64,000 nucleotides of DNA from a bacterium HR19. Its GTDB lineage: Bacteria; Calescibacteriota; Calescibacteriia; Calescibacteriales; Calescibacteriaceae. This document shows, one piece after another, positions 9,260 to 38,555 of the stretch. The stretch lies in the NCBI GenBank assembly GCA_002898315.1, contig BEHV01000008.1:1-64000 (forward strand), written 5' to 3'. The position numbers were made by a program, and so were the translations under genes. The notes beneath the pieces are model-generated. The model searched no databases and had not been told where the DNA came from. It saw nothing but the letters and a program-made list of their open reading frames with translations. Numbering within the stretch: the stretch's first letter is position 1; each line of letters opens with the position of its first letter.

Positions 9260-11197
9260 TCAATTTTTGTTTTTCTTTTTTGGGGAACTTATAGAAATGC
9301 CTGGGTTCTCTTGTAAGCTTTCCTTAAAATTTTTTACCACCTCCTTAAAGTTTTCTTTGAACTTTTCAAACTCTTCAAGGTAGGTCTTTATCATTGAAGA
9401 AAGCGAGTGCCTCCATAGTTTTTCTCCTCTCGCTATTGAATCAAGCTCTTCCTCCATACTTGCAGTGAATTCTGGCAAACATATCTTCGGCATGTATTTT
9501 TCCAAAACCTCGTCTTGAAATATCCCATCTCCCGTGGGAATTAACTTACCTTTCTCTTCAACTATGTATCCTCTTTTTTTGAGGGTTTTTATTATTGTTG
9601 AGTATGTTGATGGTCTTCCGACACCTGATCTTTCAAGCTCTTTTATAAGCGTTGCTTCTGTATAAAGTGGTGGAGGCGTTGTGAATTTCTTCTTATAAGA
9701 TATTCTTTCAAGGGGTTTTTGTCCAACCGATAAATTTTTTGTAAATTCAAAAGATAAAGCAAACTTGAAATTTTCATCTCCTTCATACTCATCATCACTC
9801 AAATCCTCTTCTCTTCTGTTCCATAATCTCAAAAACCCGTCAAACTTCAAATTTCTCACTTTAAAAGCGAAAAACAAATTCTGTGGTAGAGAAGGAGACG
9901 AGAATTTTACCTGAACAACACCAAATAAAGCGTTCTTTGACTGCGATGAGAAAAACCTGAAACATATCATAAGAAGGAGTTTATCATACGGATTCAGGTT
10001 TGAATCTTTCAGTTTGCTCAAAGAAGAAATATCATCAAAAAACTTCACAAATCTCTGAAATCCTTCTTCTGTCGGTCTTATACATTCGTGGGCTTCCTGA
10101 GCATTTGCAACTTTTGTCTTCCATCTTCTCCCCACATTCTCTATATCTTTATAACTTGACGAAAAGAAAGATTTTGCTATTGAGAATCCCTGCTCTGAAA
10201 TATGAGTTGAATCAGTCCTATGATAAGTTATAAGACCTCTTTCAAAAAGGTTCTGGGCTATCTTCATCGTGAAGTCAGAAGAAAAACGAAAGAAGTTCTT
10301 CGCATCTTGCAACATAGATGATGTGGTATATGGTGGAGGTGGGCTTTTGCTTTCATTTGTTCTTCTGAAATCAGATACATAAAGCGAATTTATGCTTTCC
10401 GCTAATTCCTTCGCCTCAAATTCAGAAAAGAAATGTTTTACCCTTACCAGCGCTGATTTCTCATCACCAGATGAACCTATATCCTGAACTTTCTCATAGA
10501 GAACCGCCTTTATGTCCCCAAAGTCCGCATAAACTATAAAATACGGCTTTCTCTCAAAATCCCTTACCTCTTTCCATCTTTTAACTATGAGATGAAGGGC
10601 TGCTGACTGAACCCTGCCAGCAGATGAGTTCTTCCTTATACTCCAAAAAACAGGAGATAATGTATACCCCACAACTCTATCTATCAACCTTCTTGATATC
10701 TGAGCGTGGACAAGGTTCATATCTATTTTTCTCGGATTTTCCAGAGAGTTAAGAATTGCCTGAGGAGTTATCTCGTGGAAGACAATTCTTTTTGGGTCTT
10801 TTATGTTAAGAACTTGCGATATGTGCCAAGCTATCGCTTCACCCTCCCTATCTGGGTCTGTTGCTAAAATAACCTCCTCGGCATGTTCTGTTTCCCTTCT
10901 TATAAAACTGATGACTTTTCTTTTTGTTATCGTCCAGCTAACATTTACTTCTCCTTTCAATATGTCTTGGAAAGAAAAACCCATCGTTCTTTCTGGAAGG
11001 TCTCTTATATGCCCAAAAGATGCAACTACTTTCCACTCTTTACCAAGTATAGAAGAAATTTTTCTGCTTTTTGTCGGCGACTCAACTATAAGAACCTTCT
11101 TTGGTTTCCCCCGATTAGAGCTTTCCTTCTTCTTAATAACGATTGCCTTCTGATTTTCTTCGTGACTACCTTTCCTTCTGAAATTTTCATTCGCCAT
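9260..11197 (-). CDS. topA: DNA topoisomerase I
   Basis: Type IA topoisomerase that relaxes negative supercoils. After a 30-residue Lys-rich extension the Toprim domain starts at KVLIVESPTKSRKIS and holds DPDREGE at 114-120. The region SSAGRVQSAA (191-200) is typical, and the active-site Tyr is Tyr325 in GLITYHRTDST (His replaces the more common Met beside it). At 645 aa it is far shorter than the 865-aa E. coli enzyme, and no Cys-pair zinc ribbons occur; it ends in a basic, Asn/Lys-rich tail. TAAATT lies 6 nt before the ATG and no ribosome site is seen. It is convergent with gspF with only 5 bp between. Confidence 0.95.
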   Translation of the reverse strand: MANENFRRKGSHEENQKAIVIKKKESSNRGKPKKVLIVESPTKSRKISSILGKEWKVVASFGHIRDLPERTMGFSFQDILKGEVNVSWTITKRKVISFIRRETEHAEEVILATDPDREGEAIAWHISQVLNIKDPKRIVFHEITPQAILNSLENPRKIDMNLVHAQISRRLIDRVVGYTLSPVFWSIRKNSSAGRVQSAALHLIVKRWKEVRDFERKPYFIVYADFGDIKAVLYEKVQDIGSSGDEKSALVRVKHFFSEFEAKELAESINSLYVSDFRRTNESKSPPPPYTTSSMLQDAKNFFRFSSDFTMKIAQNLFERGLITYHRTDSTHISEQGFSIAKSFFSSSYKDIENVGRRWKTKVANAQEAHECIRPTEEGFQRFVKFFDDISSLSKLKDSNLNPYDKLLLMICFRFFSSQSKNALFGVVQVKFSSPSLPQNLFFAFKVRNLKFDGFLRLWNRREEDLSDDEYEGDENFKFALSFEFTKNLSVGQKPLERISYKKKFTTPPPLYTEATLIKELERSGVGRPSTYSTIIKTLKKRGYIVEEKGKLIPTGDGIFQDEVLEKYMPKICLPEFTASMEEELDSIARGEKLWRHSLSSMIKTYLEEFEKFKENFKEVVKNFKESLQENPGISISSPKKKNKN

Positions 11198-11999: not shown

Positions 12000-12013
12000 T
12001 AATTTATATTGGA

Positions 12014-12205
12014 GTATCCTGTGGAGGGAAGCCCGTGAGAATCGGGTGCGGCCCCAGCCGCCGTGACCCTGAATCTGCGGGCTCGGCATGCCACTGGGTA
12101 GTTGGGTGAAATCTAAAGCTCGCTACCTCGGGAAGGCATGCTATAAAAAAAACCCGCAGTAGGTCCTAAGGGACCGAAGGGGAGCCGGAAGACCTCGCAG
12201 GATAC
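12014..12205 (+). ncRNA. Cobalamin (adenosylcobalamin-type) riboswitch
   Basis: A structured, GC-rich leader within AT-rich surroundings. P1 is a perfect 8-bp pairing of GTATCCTG (12014-12021) with CAGGATAC (12198-12205). Between them are hallmarks of the class: GGAGGGAAGCCCGTGAGAAT near 12023, GGTGCGGCCCCAGCCGCCGTGACCC, the GCCACTGGGTAG region, and the B12-box-like GGGAGCCGGAAGACCTCGC just before the closing strand. No terminator hairpin lies between P1 and the ATG at 12231, and GGGGGTG at 12217 is the ribosome site, so control of translation initiation is the simpler model. It governs a beta-propeller lipoprotein and cobT. Confidence 0.92.
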
Positions 12206-12230
12206 AAAAAATAACTGGGGGTGAACAAAA

Positions 12231-13475
12231 ATGCAAAGAAAAATACTCGGCTTAACTATATCAGAAAAAAACGGCACCGAAAAAATCAAAACAAAAAAGC
12301 AAAATCAAAAAAAACTTCTTTTCCTCCTTATCTCAACTATCATATTCACATCAGCTCAATGCGCTCAAAATGAAACAAACCAGAACACAAAAAAAGATTA
12401 TATACCCGAAAAAATAGTAATAGGTGGAGAAACCTCAGGCAAAATGCTCCTCATCAAAAATGGAAAAGAAAAACTCCTCCAAGAGATAAAAGGAGCGGTA
12501 TTTCATCAGGTTATAATGTCTCACGATGGAAAACTCATCTTCGCAGCTTCACCTAATCAGAACAAAGTATATGTTTTTGATGGAGGTAACTTATCTCTTA
12601 TAAAAACAATAGATGTCGGAGAACACCCAACACACATGAGCTTTGATGATGAAGGAAAAATTCTTTCTGTTGTCAACGAAGATAGCGGAGAAGTATCTTT
12701 TATATCAGTAGAAAGATTGGAAGAGTTGAAAAGGTTCTCCGGATTCTCAACCCCTCACTTTGCGAGGTTCTACAATAACCTCTGGTTTGTAGCTAACTTC
12801 TCATCAAACAAAATATCTGTTGTTGATTTAGAAAAGGGAATAATAAAAGAGCTAATCGCTCCGGGAATACCAGAGTGTGAGAGAAATGAAGAATGCGCTT
12901 TCTTTGATGTATCTTTAAGAAGTGGAACCGGCTTGGCGCTACACAAAAAATCAGGAACAATAATTGAGTTCAACACTCATACCCTTGAAATCACAAAACT
13001 CGTTGGAAAAGAAAATTCACTACTGAAAAAAGCTTATGAAGGATTAGAAGATGTCTCCGCTTTCAGAATAGTAATCTCACCATTTGAACCCGTAGCATAC
13101 GGAGTTTTCTCAAAAGGTGTCATAATGTATGACTATGTCGCAAGAGATATTTTCAATATATGGGTTTCAGATGAAAAATTCTTCTCGCAGTTCCTAATAG
13201 AGTATCCCGGAAAAGTTTTTGTTCTGATGCACGACAAAAACAAGATCGCTATTTTTTCTAAATTCAAACTTGAGAAAACAGTAGAGGTTGGCGGAGTTCC
13301 AGTAGAAGGAATCTATTACAATGGATACATATATGTTTTCGTAGCAGACGAGAAAACACATAAAACAAAGTTGCTCGCACTTGACGGAGAAGGGAAGACA
13401 TTTGAAATAGCTGAAGAAGATTTCTTCCCAGCAGAAGGAATACATATTCCGGGAGCTTATCCGTACTGCCACTGA
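12231..13475 (+). CDS. Riboswitch-controlled beta-propeller lipoprotein, candidate BtuG-like corrinoid-binding protein
   Basis: 414 aa with a long basic N-region, a hydrophobic stretch at 29-40 and SAQC (Cys44) as a lipobox with Gln at -1. The mature part is made of YVTN/YncE-type propeller strands, for example GGNLSLIKTIDVGEHPTHMSFDDEG and NKISVVDLEKG. It has a Cys pair in PECERNEECAFFD and ends in GAYPYCH. Translation starts at GGGGGTGAACAAAAATG directly after a cobalamin riboswitch, and cobT follows after 60 bp. In Bacteroides, BtuG is a surface lipoprotein propeller that binds cobalamin very tightly. By architecture plus regulation I infer a similar corrinoid-capture role here; homology to BtuG itself is not shown. 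No TonB receptor lies beside it. Confidence 0.75.
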   Translation: MQRKILGLTISEKNGTEKIKTKKQNQKKLLFLLISTIIFTSAQCAQNETNQNTKKDYIPEKIVIGGETSGKMLLIKNGKEKLLQEIKGAVFHQVIMSHDGKLIFAASPNQNKVYVFDGGNLSLIKTIDVGEHPTHMSFDDEGKILSVVNEDSGEVSFISVERLEELKRFSGFSTPHFARFYNNLWFVANFSSNKISVVDLEKGIIKELIAPGIPECERNEECAFFDVSLRSGTGLALHKKSGTIIEFNTHTLEITKLVGKENSLLKKAYEGLEDVSAFRIVISPFEPVAYGVFSKGVIMYDYVARDIFNIWVSDEKFFSQFLIEYPGKVFVLMHDKNKIAIFSKFKLEKTVEVGGVPVEGIYYNGYIYVFVADEKTHKTKLLALDGEGKTFEIAEEDFFPAEGIHIPGAYPYCH

Positions 13476-13534
13476 ATAACTTTCAGCTAACTTCCAACAG
13501 AAAGCGCTCTCAACAAAAAGGAGGTAGAAAAACT

Positions 13535-14560
13535 ATGAATGGAACTACTTCAATTGAAAAAGCGGTTAGAGATAAACTTGATAATCTCACAAAGCCAAAG
13601 GGGAGTTTAGGATTTCTTGAGGAGATCGTGGTAAAATACGCGAAGATAACAGGGAAAACAGAGTTTCATCTTCCGCTAAAAAAGATGGTTTTTGTTTTCT
13701 GCGGAGACCACGGAGTAGCAGAAGAAGGAGTGAGCGCATACCCACAAGAAGTCACAGCACAAATGGTTTATAACTTCATAAAAGGAGGAGCAGGAATAAA
13801 TGTTATATCAAGATACGTTGGAGCTGAGGTATATGTTGTTGATGTCGGCGTAAAAGAAGATATATTATCGCAGAGTGAGAACTTTATAATGAGGAAGATA
13901 TCTTATGGAACGAGAAACTTTACAAAAGAACCAGCTATGACAGAAGAACAAGCACAAAAAAGCATAGAAGTGGGAATAGAGATGTCTGAATTAGCTCAAT
14001 CAAAAAGAGCAGATATTGTCATACCGGGAGATATGGGAATAGCTAACACCACCCCATCATCTGCAATAATATCATTCGTAACTGAACAACCACCAGAAAA
14101 AGTCGTAGGAAGAGGAACAGGCATAGACGATACGAGGTTGAGAAAGAAGATTGAGGTTGTGAAAAGAGCTATTGAGATGTGGAAACCGAAAGACGGCTTT
14201 GATGCGCTCTGCAAATTCGGTGGCTTTGAAATAGGAGCAATAGCAGGACTAATCTTGGGGTGCAAAAAAAATAAAATTCCCGTAGTTCTTGATGGTCTCA
14301 TAACCCTTGCTGGATTTCTCATCGCATACTCAATTGACCCAGAAGTCAAAGATTATGTTTTTGCTGGACACAAAACAGCTGAACCAGGCGGAAATGTAGC
14401 TCTTTCGTTTCTTGGGATAAGACCTATACTTGACCTTGATATGCGACTCGGCGAAGGTACAGGCGGAACGCTCGCAACTTCTATAATAGAATGCGCCTTG
14501 AAAATCTATAATGAAATGGCAACTTTTTCATCAGCCGGTGTCTCCCAATCAAATATATAA
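13535..14560 (+). CDS. cobT: Nicotinate-nucleotide--dimethylbenzimidazole phosphoribosyltransferase
   Basis: CobT transfers the phosphoribosyl group of nicotinate mononucleotide to dimethylbenzimidazole (or another base) to make the alpha-ribazole phosphate of the cobalamin lower loop. The 341-aa length is typical. It starts near LDNLTKPKGSLGFLEE, has FCGDHGVAEEGVSAYP, PGDMGIANTTPSSAI and GRGTGIDD, and the catalytic Glu is Glu307 in RLGEGTGG. AAAGGAGGTAG precedes the ATG. It is the second gene behind the cobalamin riboswitch, consistent with nucleotide-loop assembly or remodelling of salvaged corrinoids. Confidence 0.95.
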   Translation: MNGTTSIEKAVRDKLDNLTKPKGSLGFLEEIVVKYAKITGKTEFHLPLKKMVFVFCGDHGVAEEGVSAYPQEVTAQMVYNFIKGGAGINVISRYVGAEVYVVDVGVKEDILSQSENFIMRKISYGTRNFTKEPAMTEEQAQKSIEVGIEMSELAQSKRADIVIPGDMGIANTTPSSAIISFVTEQPPEKVVGRGTGIDDTRLRKKIEVVKRAIEMWKPKDGFDALCKFGGFEIGAIAGLILGCKKNKIPVVLDGLITLAGFLIAYSIDPEVKDYVFAGHKTAEPGGNVALSFLGIRPILDLDMRLGEGTGGTLATSIIECALKIYNEMATFSSAGVSQSNI

Positions 14561-35953: not shown

Positions 35954-37972
35954 TCATTTTTGTTTTGAAAGTGCTACCGCAAAAGTTATTCCAGCTCCGC
36001 TTTCCGATTTCCTCTTCACTTTCGGCAAAATAAGCTGTGAGTTCTCTCCCGCAGACAAAATAGCAGATGCCTCAGAAACAGAAGGAACACCAACATATTT
36101 TTCGGCAAAATGAGATGGATTCATGACAAGATGTGAAACACTCAAAAGTTCATCTCTCGTAAAAAACTGAAATTCAATACCGAACTCGTTTTCCATAAGC
36201 TTGGCAAACTTTACGAATTCAGGGTCATTCCTTTTCTTGTCAATTGTCGCTATCTTCTTCACACTGAAAAAAGACAAATTATTTTCTTTGAGAACCTCTT
36301 TCAGAAAGTTTTCAAATTCATAATGTTTTACACCTTCATCAAAACCTATACCCACACATAAGACACGCGGTCTATAAAAAACGCATGGGATTTTTATTTT
36401 TTCTTTATTCACTATTCTGTGAGTTATAAAGAGGCATGCCGAAAAATCGCTCTGCTTTTCTAAAAATTCTTTTTCTGAAAGTTCAACAACATTCGGCGGA
36501 AGCTTGAAAAACCTCTCCCCTGACTCCTGAACCAAAGCAACCCTCTCAAAATTCACAACCGCAGATGAAACCCTAACAAAAGTGTCGTGGTCTGCCTCCT
36601 GTTTCCACCCGAACTCACGCCCGAATATATCAACCGGAATCGTTCCTATCGAATCAGAAGCGGTTGTTATGACAGGAGTTGCCCCTATAATATGAGCTAT
36701 CTCTCTTGCGAGCTCATTCGCTCCACCAACATGACCCGATAGTAAGCTGATAACAAATCTTCCAGCATCATCTATCGCTAAAACCGCAGGGTCCTCTTCC
36801 TTTGACCTGATATGAGGAGCTATAATCCTCATGAAAGCTCCCACAGATATAACTCCGCAAATAGCATCATACCTTGAAAATATATCTCCTATAAGCTCTT
36901 TCAGATTCTTGAAGAAAGTAATAGATTTGAAATTTTCTATCTCCGATGAGCTATCTTTTTCAAACTCTGACTTAAACTTTTCAGAGACGAAAAAGTGCGT
37001 ATCAGCAAAATCTATCTTCTCCTTCAATTTTTTGAGAATTTCTATCCCTCCTTTCGTTATAGCTAAAAATGCTATGCCTTTTTTAAAGATAGATGAAAGA
37101 ACTTTTTTTCTCACATCATGAGAAATCTCAAAACCATAAGAACTCTCCTTTAACTCATCTGAAATCTTATCTTTTTTCTCAGAGAAAAACTTCCTTTGCT
37201 CAAAACTTTTTGCTTTCTGAACAATTTCTGAGTAATCATCTGAGTAGACAAAAGATCTTTTACCTCTTGCTGTAAAGACCTTTGAGACAATAAAGAGAGC
37301 ATGAGAAGTGATCCCCTCTTTCTTCGCTCTATCGCATATATCAGATAGAGTTCCAAAAATTATCTTCTCATCATCCCATGTCACCTTATAACACAGCGCA
37401 CAAGGAAAATCATAAGGATACCCAACATCAATAAGGTCATCTACTATATTTTTGAGCAAAGAAGCGGAGAGAAAAAAAATCAGGGTTGGCTTCTGCTTAG
37501 CTATCTCTTTTATATCCTCAGGAACCGGCGTCTTTCCCGGATACCTCGTTATAACAACTGTCTGAGTGACATCTGGGACTGTGAATTCTGTTTTAAGACG
37601 ACTCGCACAGGCAAGAAAAGATGAAACCCCCGGAACAATCTCAAAGTCAATGCCGTAGCTCTCAAGAACTTCCATCTGCTCTTTTATTGAGCCGAATATA
37701 GAAGGGTCTCCGTCATGCAGACGCACAACTAACTTCCCTTCCCTGTAAAACTCACGCATCAGCTCACATATTTCTTCAACAGTTCTGCCATGAGAATCAA
37801 TCTTATGAGCATTTTTTGCAAAATCTAAAATCTCTCTGTTTATCAGAGAGCCGGTATAAATTACAACATCTGCATTTTTGAGAACTTCATAAGCCCTCAG
37901 TGTTATAAGATATGGGTCTCCCGGTCCAGCTCCAACAAAGTAAATCTTCCCTTCTTTTTGATTCTGGCTCAT
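35954..37972 (-). CDS. Fused cobalt-precorrin-4 methyltransferase and cobalamin biosynthesis protein CbiG
   Basis: Two enzymes of the anaerobic corrin pathway in one 672-aa chain. The N-terminal SAM-dependent methyltransferase (about 10-260; YFVGAGPGDPYLITLRAYEVL, HDGDPSIFGSI, EIVPGVSSF) is CbiF/CobM, which methylates C11. The rest is CbiG, which opens the delta-lactone ring: an N-terminal GIAFLAITKGGIEILKKL segment, the core YDAICGVISVGAFMRIIAPHI with SLLSGHVGGANELA, and the C-terminal CVGIGFDEGVKHYEF and PSVSEASAILSAG. The frame extends upstream to 38086, but the ATG at 37972 (MSQNQKEGK) fits the family start and avoids overlap with the previous gene. Downstream of two Fe-S scaffold-like genes. 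Confidence 0.92.
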   Translation of the reverse strand: MSQNQKEGKIYFVGAGPGDPYLITLRAYEVLKNADVVIYTGSLINREILDFAKNAHKIDSHGRTVEEICELMREFYREGKLVVRLHDGDPSIFGSIKEQMEVLESYGIDFEIVPGVSSFLACASRLKTEFTVPDVTQTVVITRYPGKTPVPEDIKEIAKQKPTLIFFLSASLLKNIVDDLIDVGYPYDFPCALCYKVTWDDEKIIFGTLSDICDRAKKEGITSHALFIVSKVFTARGKRSFVYSDDYSEIVQKAKSFEQRKFFSEKKDKISDELKESSYGFEISHDVRKKVLSSIFKKGIAFLAITKGGIEILKKLKEKIDFADTHFFVSEKFKSEFEKDSSSEIENFKSITFFKNLKELIGDIFSRYDAICGVISVGAFMRIIAPHIRSKEEDPAVLAIDDAGRFVISLLSGHVGGANELAREIAHIIGATPVITTASDSIGTIPVDIFGREFGWKQEADHDTFVRVSSAVVNFERVALVQESGERFFKLPPNVVELSEKEFLEKQSDFSACLFITHRIVNKEKIKIPCVFYRPRVLCVGIGFDEGVKHYEFENFLKEVLKENNLSFFSVKKIATIDKKRNDPEFVKFAKLMENEFGIEFQFFTRDELLSVSHLVMNPSHFAEKYVGVPSVSEASAILSAGENSQLILPKVKRKSESGAGITFAVALSKQK

Positions 37973-38018
37973 CTCAAAATAATTAAAGGCAAAACCTTCC
38001 GGAATAGTTTTTACCTGA

Positions 38019-38555
38019 TTACATTTTTGGGTTTTGGATTTTCTGAGCTGTTTTTGGAGCGAGTTTGAATCCGAAATTCGGTTCAACCGGCTTTTCAGCT
38101 GGTTCCACCTTCTTTATCCACGGGATATGGTCAGAGAGTATTCTTTTCACTCCCGCTTTCATAGTAGCGACAGCAGATGGACAAAGCGCACAAGCTCCCT
38201 TCAAAGATACAACCACTAAACCATCAACTTCGTCTATCGTTTTTACCTCAATATCTCCTCCGTGCGACCTTATGTATTCTCCTACTCTGCTCATAACATG
38301 CTCAATCTCTTTTTCGGGAGAGTCAAAAAACCCTATATCTTTTCCGTAGATTTTCTCCCTTATGAATGATTCAAGCTTTGAAAAAGCTTCGTTTTTCTCT
38401 CTATTTGCATTGAACCTGACACCGAAGAAAATCTTCTCTTTTTGCTCATCTACAACATATATTTTTTCAACAAAATTGAAATTTTTCAGAATATCTGCAA
38501 GCACATGGGAGTATTTCTCATTGAGAATTTCTCGCAGAGGTTTTATAAGTGGCAT
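38019..38555 (-). CDS. NifU C-terminal-domain Fe-S scaffold-like protein
   Basis: 178 aa. Residues about 85-155 form a NifU C-terminal domain: VGEYIRSHGGDIEVKTIDEVDGLVVVSLKG followed by ACALCPSA with the Cys-x-x-Cys pair that holds a transient [4Fe-4S] cluster. The N-terminal 80 residues are an unassigned alpha/beta segment, and the C-terminus is a short Pro/Lys-rich tail. It probably passes clusters to apo-proteins. A second small Cys-rich gene lies upstream on the same strand, and the CbiF-CbiG fusion follows within 50 bp. Confidence 0.82.
   Translation of the reverse strand: MPLIKPLREILNEKYSHVLADILKNFNFVEKIYVVDEQKEKIFFGVRFNANREKNEAFSKLESFIREKIYGKDIGFFDSPEKEIEHVMSRVGEYIRSHGGDIEVKTIDEVDGLVVVSLKGACALCPSAVATMKAGVKRILSDHIPWIKKVEPAEKPVEPNFGFKLAPKTAQKIQNPKM

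Follow-up and report, generated by a model that had tools for sequence, protein, structure and literature searches.

We analysed a 64,000-nucleotide stretch of DNA from a hot-spring bacterium (the window) and propose that an exported β-propeller encoded directly behind its cobalamin riboswitch is a periplasmic or outer-membrane cobalt-binding protein, working by analogy like the zinc chaperone AztD. We give this proposal an even chance. We call the protein's unnamed family the CH-propellers; it is plausible, if somewhat less probable, that this family constitutes an undescribed, widespread component of the B12 regulon, acting as an extracytoplasmic cobalt chaperone or scavenger through varied partners (a porin, a NiCoT/ECF importer or an RND system). 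Judged from sequence, the gene contexts and the conserved histidine and cysteine residues fit cobalt better than a corrinoid. The features concerned are as follows.

12002–12216, + strand: cobalamin riboswitch aptamer (RF00174; cmscan, 60.3 bits), P1 GTATCCTG/CAGGATAC
12217–12230, + strand: 14-nt spacer between aptamer and start codon; contains a ribosome binding site of the GGGGGTGA type (from the sequence)
12231–13475, + strand: predicted exported β-propeller of the CH-propeller family, 414 aa (ORF, Pfam/NCBIfam propeller matches, orthologues, family alignments and model)
12360–12362, + strand: Cys44, candidate lipidation site; Cys in 5/5 orthologues, absent in most distant members
12504–12506, + strand: His92, invariant in 18/18 family members
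12633–12635, + strand: His135, invariant in 18/18; aligned with an AztD pore-site His
12756–12758, + strand: His176, conserved in 16/18; aligned with an AztD pore-site His
12876–12896, + strand: Cys216/Cys222 (PECERNEEC), candidate disulphide, conserved only in five close orthologues
13467–13472, + strand: C-terminal Cys413-His414, invariant in 18/18
13535–14560, + strand: cobT, nicotinate-nucleotide--dimethylbenzimidazole phosphoribosyltransferase (TIGR03160, 429.5 bits, cutoff 319.3)
35957–38086, − strand: CbiF-CbiG fusion, cobalt-precorrin-4 methyltransferase/cobalt-precorrin-5A hydrolase (TIGR01465, 277.3 bits, cutoff 259.65)

The aptamer match covers the full RF00174 model (positions 1–189), scores well above the gathering score of 31.5 and is the only such match in the host genome (1.88 Mb, assembly 82% complete). 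All 8 bp of P1 are paired, as an earlier reading of the sequence alone (the sequence-only reading) had noted. In relatives, P1 is CTTCCTG/CAGGAAG, TGTTCCTTT/AAAGGAACA or TTGCTCTG/CAGAGCAA, a compensatory change that yields four different complementary sequences across five genomes. Since pairing is kept while the sequences differ, the riboswitch RNA is under selection. Riboswitches of the RF00174 class lower gene expression when intracellular adenosylcobalamin is plentiful. With a spacer too short for an intrinsic terminator, the output of the window riboswitch is likely control of translation initiation.

The propeller ORF begins with ATG, 14 nt past the riboswitch end, and is followed after a gap of 59 nt by cobT, confirming the gene order first described. 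Its product matches lactonase/YVTN propellers in Pfam and, weakly, DUF5074. Cys44 comes after a hydrophobic N-terminal stretch in all five orthologues. The lipobox is weak in the window protein, where Gln precedes Cys44, and canonical in only some of the five orthologues (one relative has a good box, LSSC). The window propeller is probably an exported lipoprotein, and the description of a B12-regulated, exported propeller outside Bacteroidetes therefore holds up. Among named records, the closest are a bacterial MAG (JAUQOU010000023) and Candidatus Calescibacterium nevadense.

A partnership with CobT, also suggested by the sequence-only reading, is not borne out: cobT adjoins the propeller gene in only two of the five genomes of the host family (G000 and G002), other genes are next in G001 and G003, and a conserved operon with cobT was rejected. 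In G004, the gene directly after the riboswitch-propeller gene encodes a MetE-type methionine synthase of 344 aa (catalytic domain; L023:11440–12474), which is possibly part of the same B12-controlled unit. At L033:1–3290 (G035:C18), a generic propeller gene adjoins two MetE-like genes; no riboswitch was found in the smaller L016 locus.

The orthologues were combined with two distant matches into a family profile, with which we searched 386 diverse genomes. Full-length relatives were found at E < 1e-70 and generic propellers at E ~ 1e-22 or weaker; extra members came from the phylum of genome G009 and from Candidatus Manganitrophus plasmids. In the 18-sequence alignment on which our residue counts rest, His92, His135, Cys413 and His414 are invariant, and residue 176 is His in 16 sequences and Leu in two RND-type paralogues. 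Cys-His forms the last two residues of all 18 proteins; of the C-terminal GAYPYCH motif highlighted earlier, the final Cys-His is thus strictly conserved. The cysteine pair of PECERNEEC, put forward at the same time, was rejected as a ligand site because it is restricted to the five close orthologues. Identity between lineages is only ~20%, so that the invariance of the His and Cys residues indicates strong constraint. The family members carry signal peptides.

Generic YVTN propellers also carry D99, G100, D117, P133, N149, S156 and P175. Histidines at positions 92, 135 and 176 are sporadic among them, and one protein (L079) has all three without a C-terminal Cys-His, which occurs in none of the generic YVTN propellers looked at. 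We therefore rejected the histidine triad as a unique mark of the family; only the triad combined with the C-terminal Cys-His is diagnostic. By this alignment, the family is defined by three axial-loop histidines plus a C-terminal Cys-His. Neither the NCBIfam equivalogs nor the Pfam family models have a name for it.

The distribution of the riboswitch supports the cobalt reading. It lies directly upstream of the propeller gene in all five genomes of the host family (the Candidatus Calescibacterium group), and upstream DNA could be read at 22 family loci, 20 of which, from four lineages, belong to operons under a cobalamin riboswitch (three near-identical Candidatus Manganitrophus plasmids are counted as one lineage). 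The sequence-only reading had named a lack of cobalamin binding, together with homologues lying mostly away from B12 riboswitches and B12 genes, as grounds for giving it up; for the homologues the reverse was found. The remaining two loci are RND operons without a riboswitch (G033 and G315).

The neighbouring genes also appear to favour cobalt: a CbiX chelatase adjoins the propeller (L025), as do CobO-CobN (L099; CobN, 1309.8 bits), HME-RND pumps are found (TIGR00914, 805 and 756 bits) next to an MFP with the Pfam heavy-metal-binding domain (marginal in L029), and in one of the two loci lacking a riboswitch the HME-RND operon adjoins CbiM-CbiQ-CbiO (L098, G315). In the phylum of G009, the riboswitch is followed by the propeller, CbiX, CbiC, CbiD and more cbi genes (L025, L097, L120, L121 and L122), with the same type of context on partial contigs (L126–L128) and a NicO-like nickel/cobalt transporter (weak match) at the far end of L122. 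A second paralogue in this phylum lies in the order riboswitch, OprB-like porin, propeller, MFP and CusA/CzcA RND (L124 and L125), and a terminator hairpin is visible behind the aptamer of L124. G101 and G367 have riboswitch, CobQ, CbiA, propeller, CobO, CobN, chelatase ATPase, CbiX and CbiC, the genes other than CobN being named by eye from sequence. The Candidatus Manganitrophus plasmids carry a cob operon, then riboswitch, porin and propeller, and G033 and G315 have a porin (seen in G315), propeller, MFP and RND.

Two further arrangements were observed. L121:8391–12993 and L123:2013–7676 each contain two separate cobalamin riboswitches, one preceding a CH-propeller and the other a TonB receptor and then a PepSY_TM protein, the two units of L123 being adjacent; the pairing of receptor and PepSY_TM protein suggests metal-chelate rather than B12 uptake. 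L124:3067–7015 and L125:1–5533 represent a B12-controlled operon with an apparent metal exporter (CusA/CzcA-type heavy-metal RND).

The host genome encodes CobA-HemD, CbiL, CbiH, a CbiF-CbiG fusion, CbiET, CbiC and CobT, and by these profile matches has much of the de novo anaerobic cobalt-corrin pathway. The fusion scores 239 bits against PRK05788, under the cutoff of 326; its gene lies 22 kb from the window riboswitch and has no riboswitch of its own. A FecCD/BtuC-type permease (PF01032) was found in none of the five Calescibacterium-group genomes, while the control search was positive in 13 of 14 reference genomes. TonB receptors (PF00593) are missing from four of the five, including the host, and from the neighbourhoods read; G004 has one, on a different contig from the propeller. 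These assemblies are 82–86% complete, so single absences are weak and the joint absence is meaningful. The part of a published survey used here reports about half of the B12 genes for C. nevadense and outer-membrane cobalamin receptors for Pyropristinus, and mentions none for the Calescibacterium lineage (PMC4791363).

To place the fold, we used an AlphaFold2 model built from three sequences, which is of moderate confidence (pLDDT 67.4, pTM 0.67). Its VIA-align Z scores are 22.2 for NirF, 21.9 for AztD and 21.5 for NirS, with NirN following; differences under 1 are ties. Foldseek lists BtuG structures at E-values similar to those of many other propellers. BtuG is absent among the best 50 VIA-align matches, which we did not take as evidence against it. 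Since the structural scores are tied, the fold does not decide function. In sequence, the family profile matches S-layer YVTN proteins (8e-53), hydrazine synthase β (1e-28) and YncE (7e-15) better than BtuG structures (~7e-12), and assignment to BtuG by homology was rejected because BtuG scores below the other three. The protein called BtuG-like by the sequence-only reading is thus no closer to BtuG than to other YVTN propellers.

AztD binds zinc in its pore through His124, His167 and His218, and its second site uses a C-terminal His (PMC6689063). In a profile-profile alignment, H135 and H176 fall on two of these, His124 and His167, and H92 lies in the preceding blade. Candidate pore histidines of a comparable kind, combined with a C-terminal His, argue by analogy for the cobalt reading. 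The AztD transfer hairpin HGxHxD (site 2), present in all AztD members aligned, is absent from the members of the family alignment. With the NCBIfam model for AztD (NF038015, cutoff 400 bits), the window protein is not among the matches listed, and two of 11 family members reach at best 1.8e-4. The CH-propeller may work like AztD but is not a member of the AztD family.

The sequence-only reading had described a corrinoid-capture lipoprotein: the propeller would bind cobalamin or its precursors, either at the outer membrane or beneath it, and pass them to a transporter, with CobT remodelling the product. The link to B12 stands, and the riboswitch, the candidate lipoprotein Cys, the fold in common with BtuG, the weak DUF5074 match, the adjacent cobT of two genomes and the riboswitch-controlled TonB receptors that adjoin the propeller gene in G009, G422 and G394 all agree with capture; an axial His could ligate the cobalt of a corrinoid too. 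However, with a BtuB-type receptor absent from four and a BtuC-type permease from all five genomes, and a de novo pathway in the host, BtuG-like capture is not the best reading, and we consider corrinoid capture unlikely. Where BtuF/BtuC are present (L120), the propeller is with CbiX, in a riboswitch unit separate from that of btuF, and the HME-RND and CbiMQO contexts also speak against it. So, apparently, do the conserved residues: they are His and Cys, and no Trp or Tyr is invariant in the family alignment, against an aromatic corrin pocket in BtuG (Trp194, Trp272 and Tyr316; PMC10404256). L027 (G039:C35, 6825–11082, − strand) encodes, behind a riboswitch (10914–11082), an Asp-rich exported protein without Pfam match, a propeller lipoprotein and a BtuB-like TonB receptor; if a pair of the BtuG kind is sought, this locus is more promising than the one in the window.

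A role like that of NirF or NirN, in which the propeller would bind a tetrapyrrole or carry out a redox, assembly or export-linked step in corrin handling outside the cytoplasm, is improbable. NirF, a propeller of heme d1 biosynthesis, is the top structural match, with NirS and NirN next, and some family members lie inside corrin operons, but the ranking is a tie, corrin ring synthesis is cytoplasmic whereas family members have signal peptides, and the porin, RND and ECF contexts would be left unexplained. Detoxification or sensing, with a periplasmic buffer for Co, Ni, Cu or Zn serving an RND pump and the B12 switch merely reporting the cobalt that reaches corrin synthesis, is about as improbable. 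It would account for the four loci that combine an HME-RND pump with an MFP (and with a porin, where visible), and for the heavy-metal-binding domain (Pfam) of the MFP, which is above cutoff in L098 (G315) and marginal, just below, in L029 (G033). The majority of members, however, are found among B12 synthesis genes with no pump in the vicinity, and B12 shortage should not switch on an exporter; a metal exporter so regulated would be hard to understand unless its mode of action is unusual.

In the cobalt reading, plentiful intracellular adenosylcobalamin would turn the propeller gene down through the window riboswitch. When B12 is short, the exported propeller would be made, lipid-anchored in the Calescibacterium lineage and apparently soluble in the periplasm in most others. 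Its pore, lined by histidines of successive blades, would act together with the C-terminal Cys-His to bind a metal, Co(II) being the likeliest. The propeller would then concentrate cobalt or hand it to a transporter, allowing the cobalt-corrin pathway to run. The riboswitch and its co-conservation with the propeller, the family with its conserved His and Cys, the cobalt-linked gene contexts and the missing canonical B12 uptake genes are observed; metal binding at a single His/Cys site, cobalt as the metal, its hand-over to a partner and the site of action are inferred. Several observations count against the cobalt reading. Single axial histidines also occur in generic propellers, with all three in L079, and the two RND-type paralogues have Leu176; the AztD transfer site HGxHxD is absent; the heme d1 proteins and BtuG share the fold equally well, with a model pLDDT of only 67; and a cell short of cobalt would hardly be expected to make an HME-RND exporter under a switch that B12 turns off (L124 and L125).

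Little is known of the route that cobalt takes through the envelope, or of its selection over zinc, nickel and copper ahead of corrin synthesis. The part of a 2021 review drawn on here (PMC7689651) places both the cobalt chelatases and the chaperone CobW in the cytoplasm, states that no outer-membrane receptor specific to cobalt is confirmed and does not mention a propeller; no relevant paper on a propeller in operons for B12 or cobalt came up in our literature searches. With an exported protein that is conserved, under B12 control and equipped with a clear candidate metal site, the envelope step would become testable, and if the proposal is true, a cobalt-chaperone propeller would do outside the cytoplasm what CobW does within it. 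More generally, finding a propeller gene downstream of a B12 riboswitch is not enough to call it BtuG.

Compared with known systems, the window riboswitch is an ordinary RF00174 member with a covarying P1, and its target gene alone is unusual. Like BtuG (PMC6143338, PMC10404256), the window protein is a propeller with an N-terminal Cys in the Calescibacterium lineage and a cobalamin riboswitch; unlike BtuG, it has no BtuB partner or BtuC-type permease, and it has axial histidines and a C-terminal Cys-His. The heme d1 propellers NirF and NirS are the best fold match and are likewise linked to a tetrapyrrole cofactor, but no nir genes were recognised among the neighbours read, where the context is corrin and cobalt instead. 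With AztD (PMC6689063), the CH-propeller shares predicted export, candidate pore histidines on successive blades (two of three aligned), a C-terminal His and a high structural score. It differs in lacking HGxHxD, in falling below NF038015 and in having no AztABC or Zur neighbours in the loci read, and it is instead placed under a B12 riboswitch and tied to cobalt and B12 genes.
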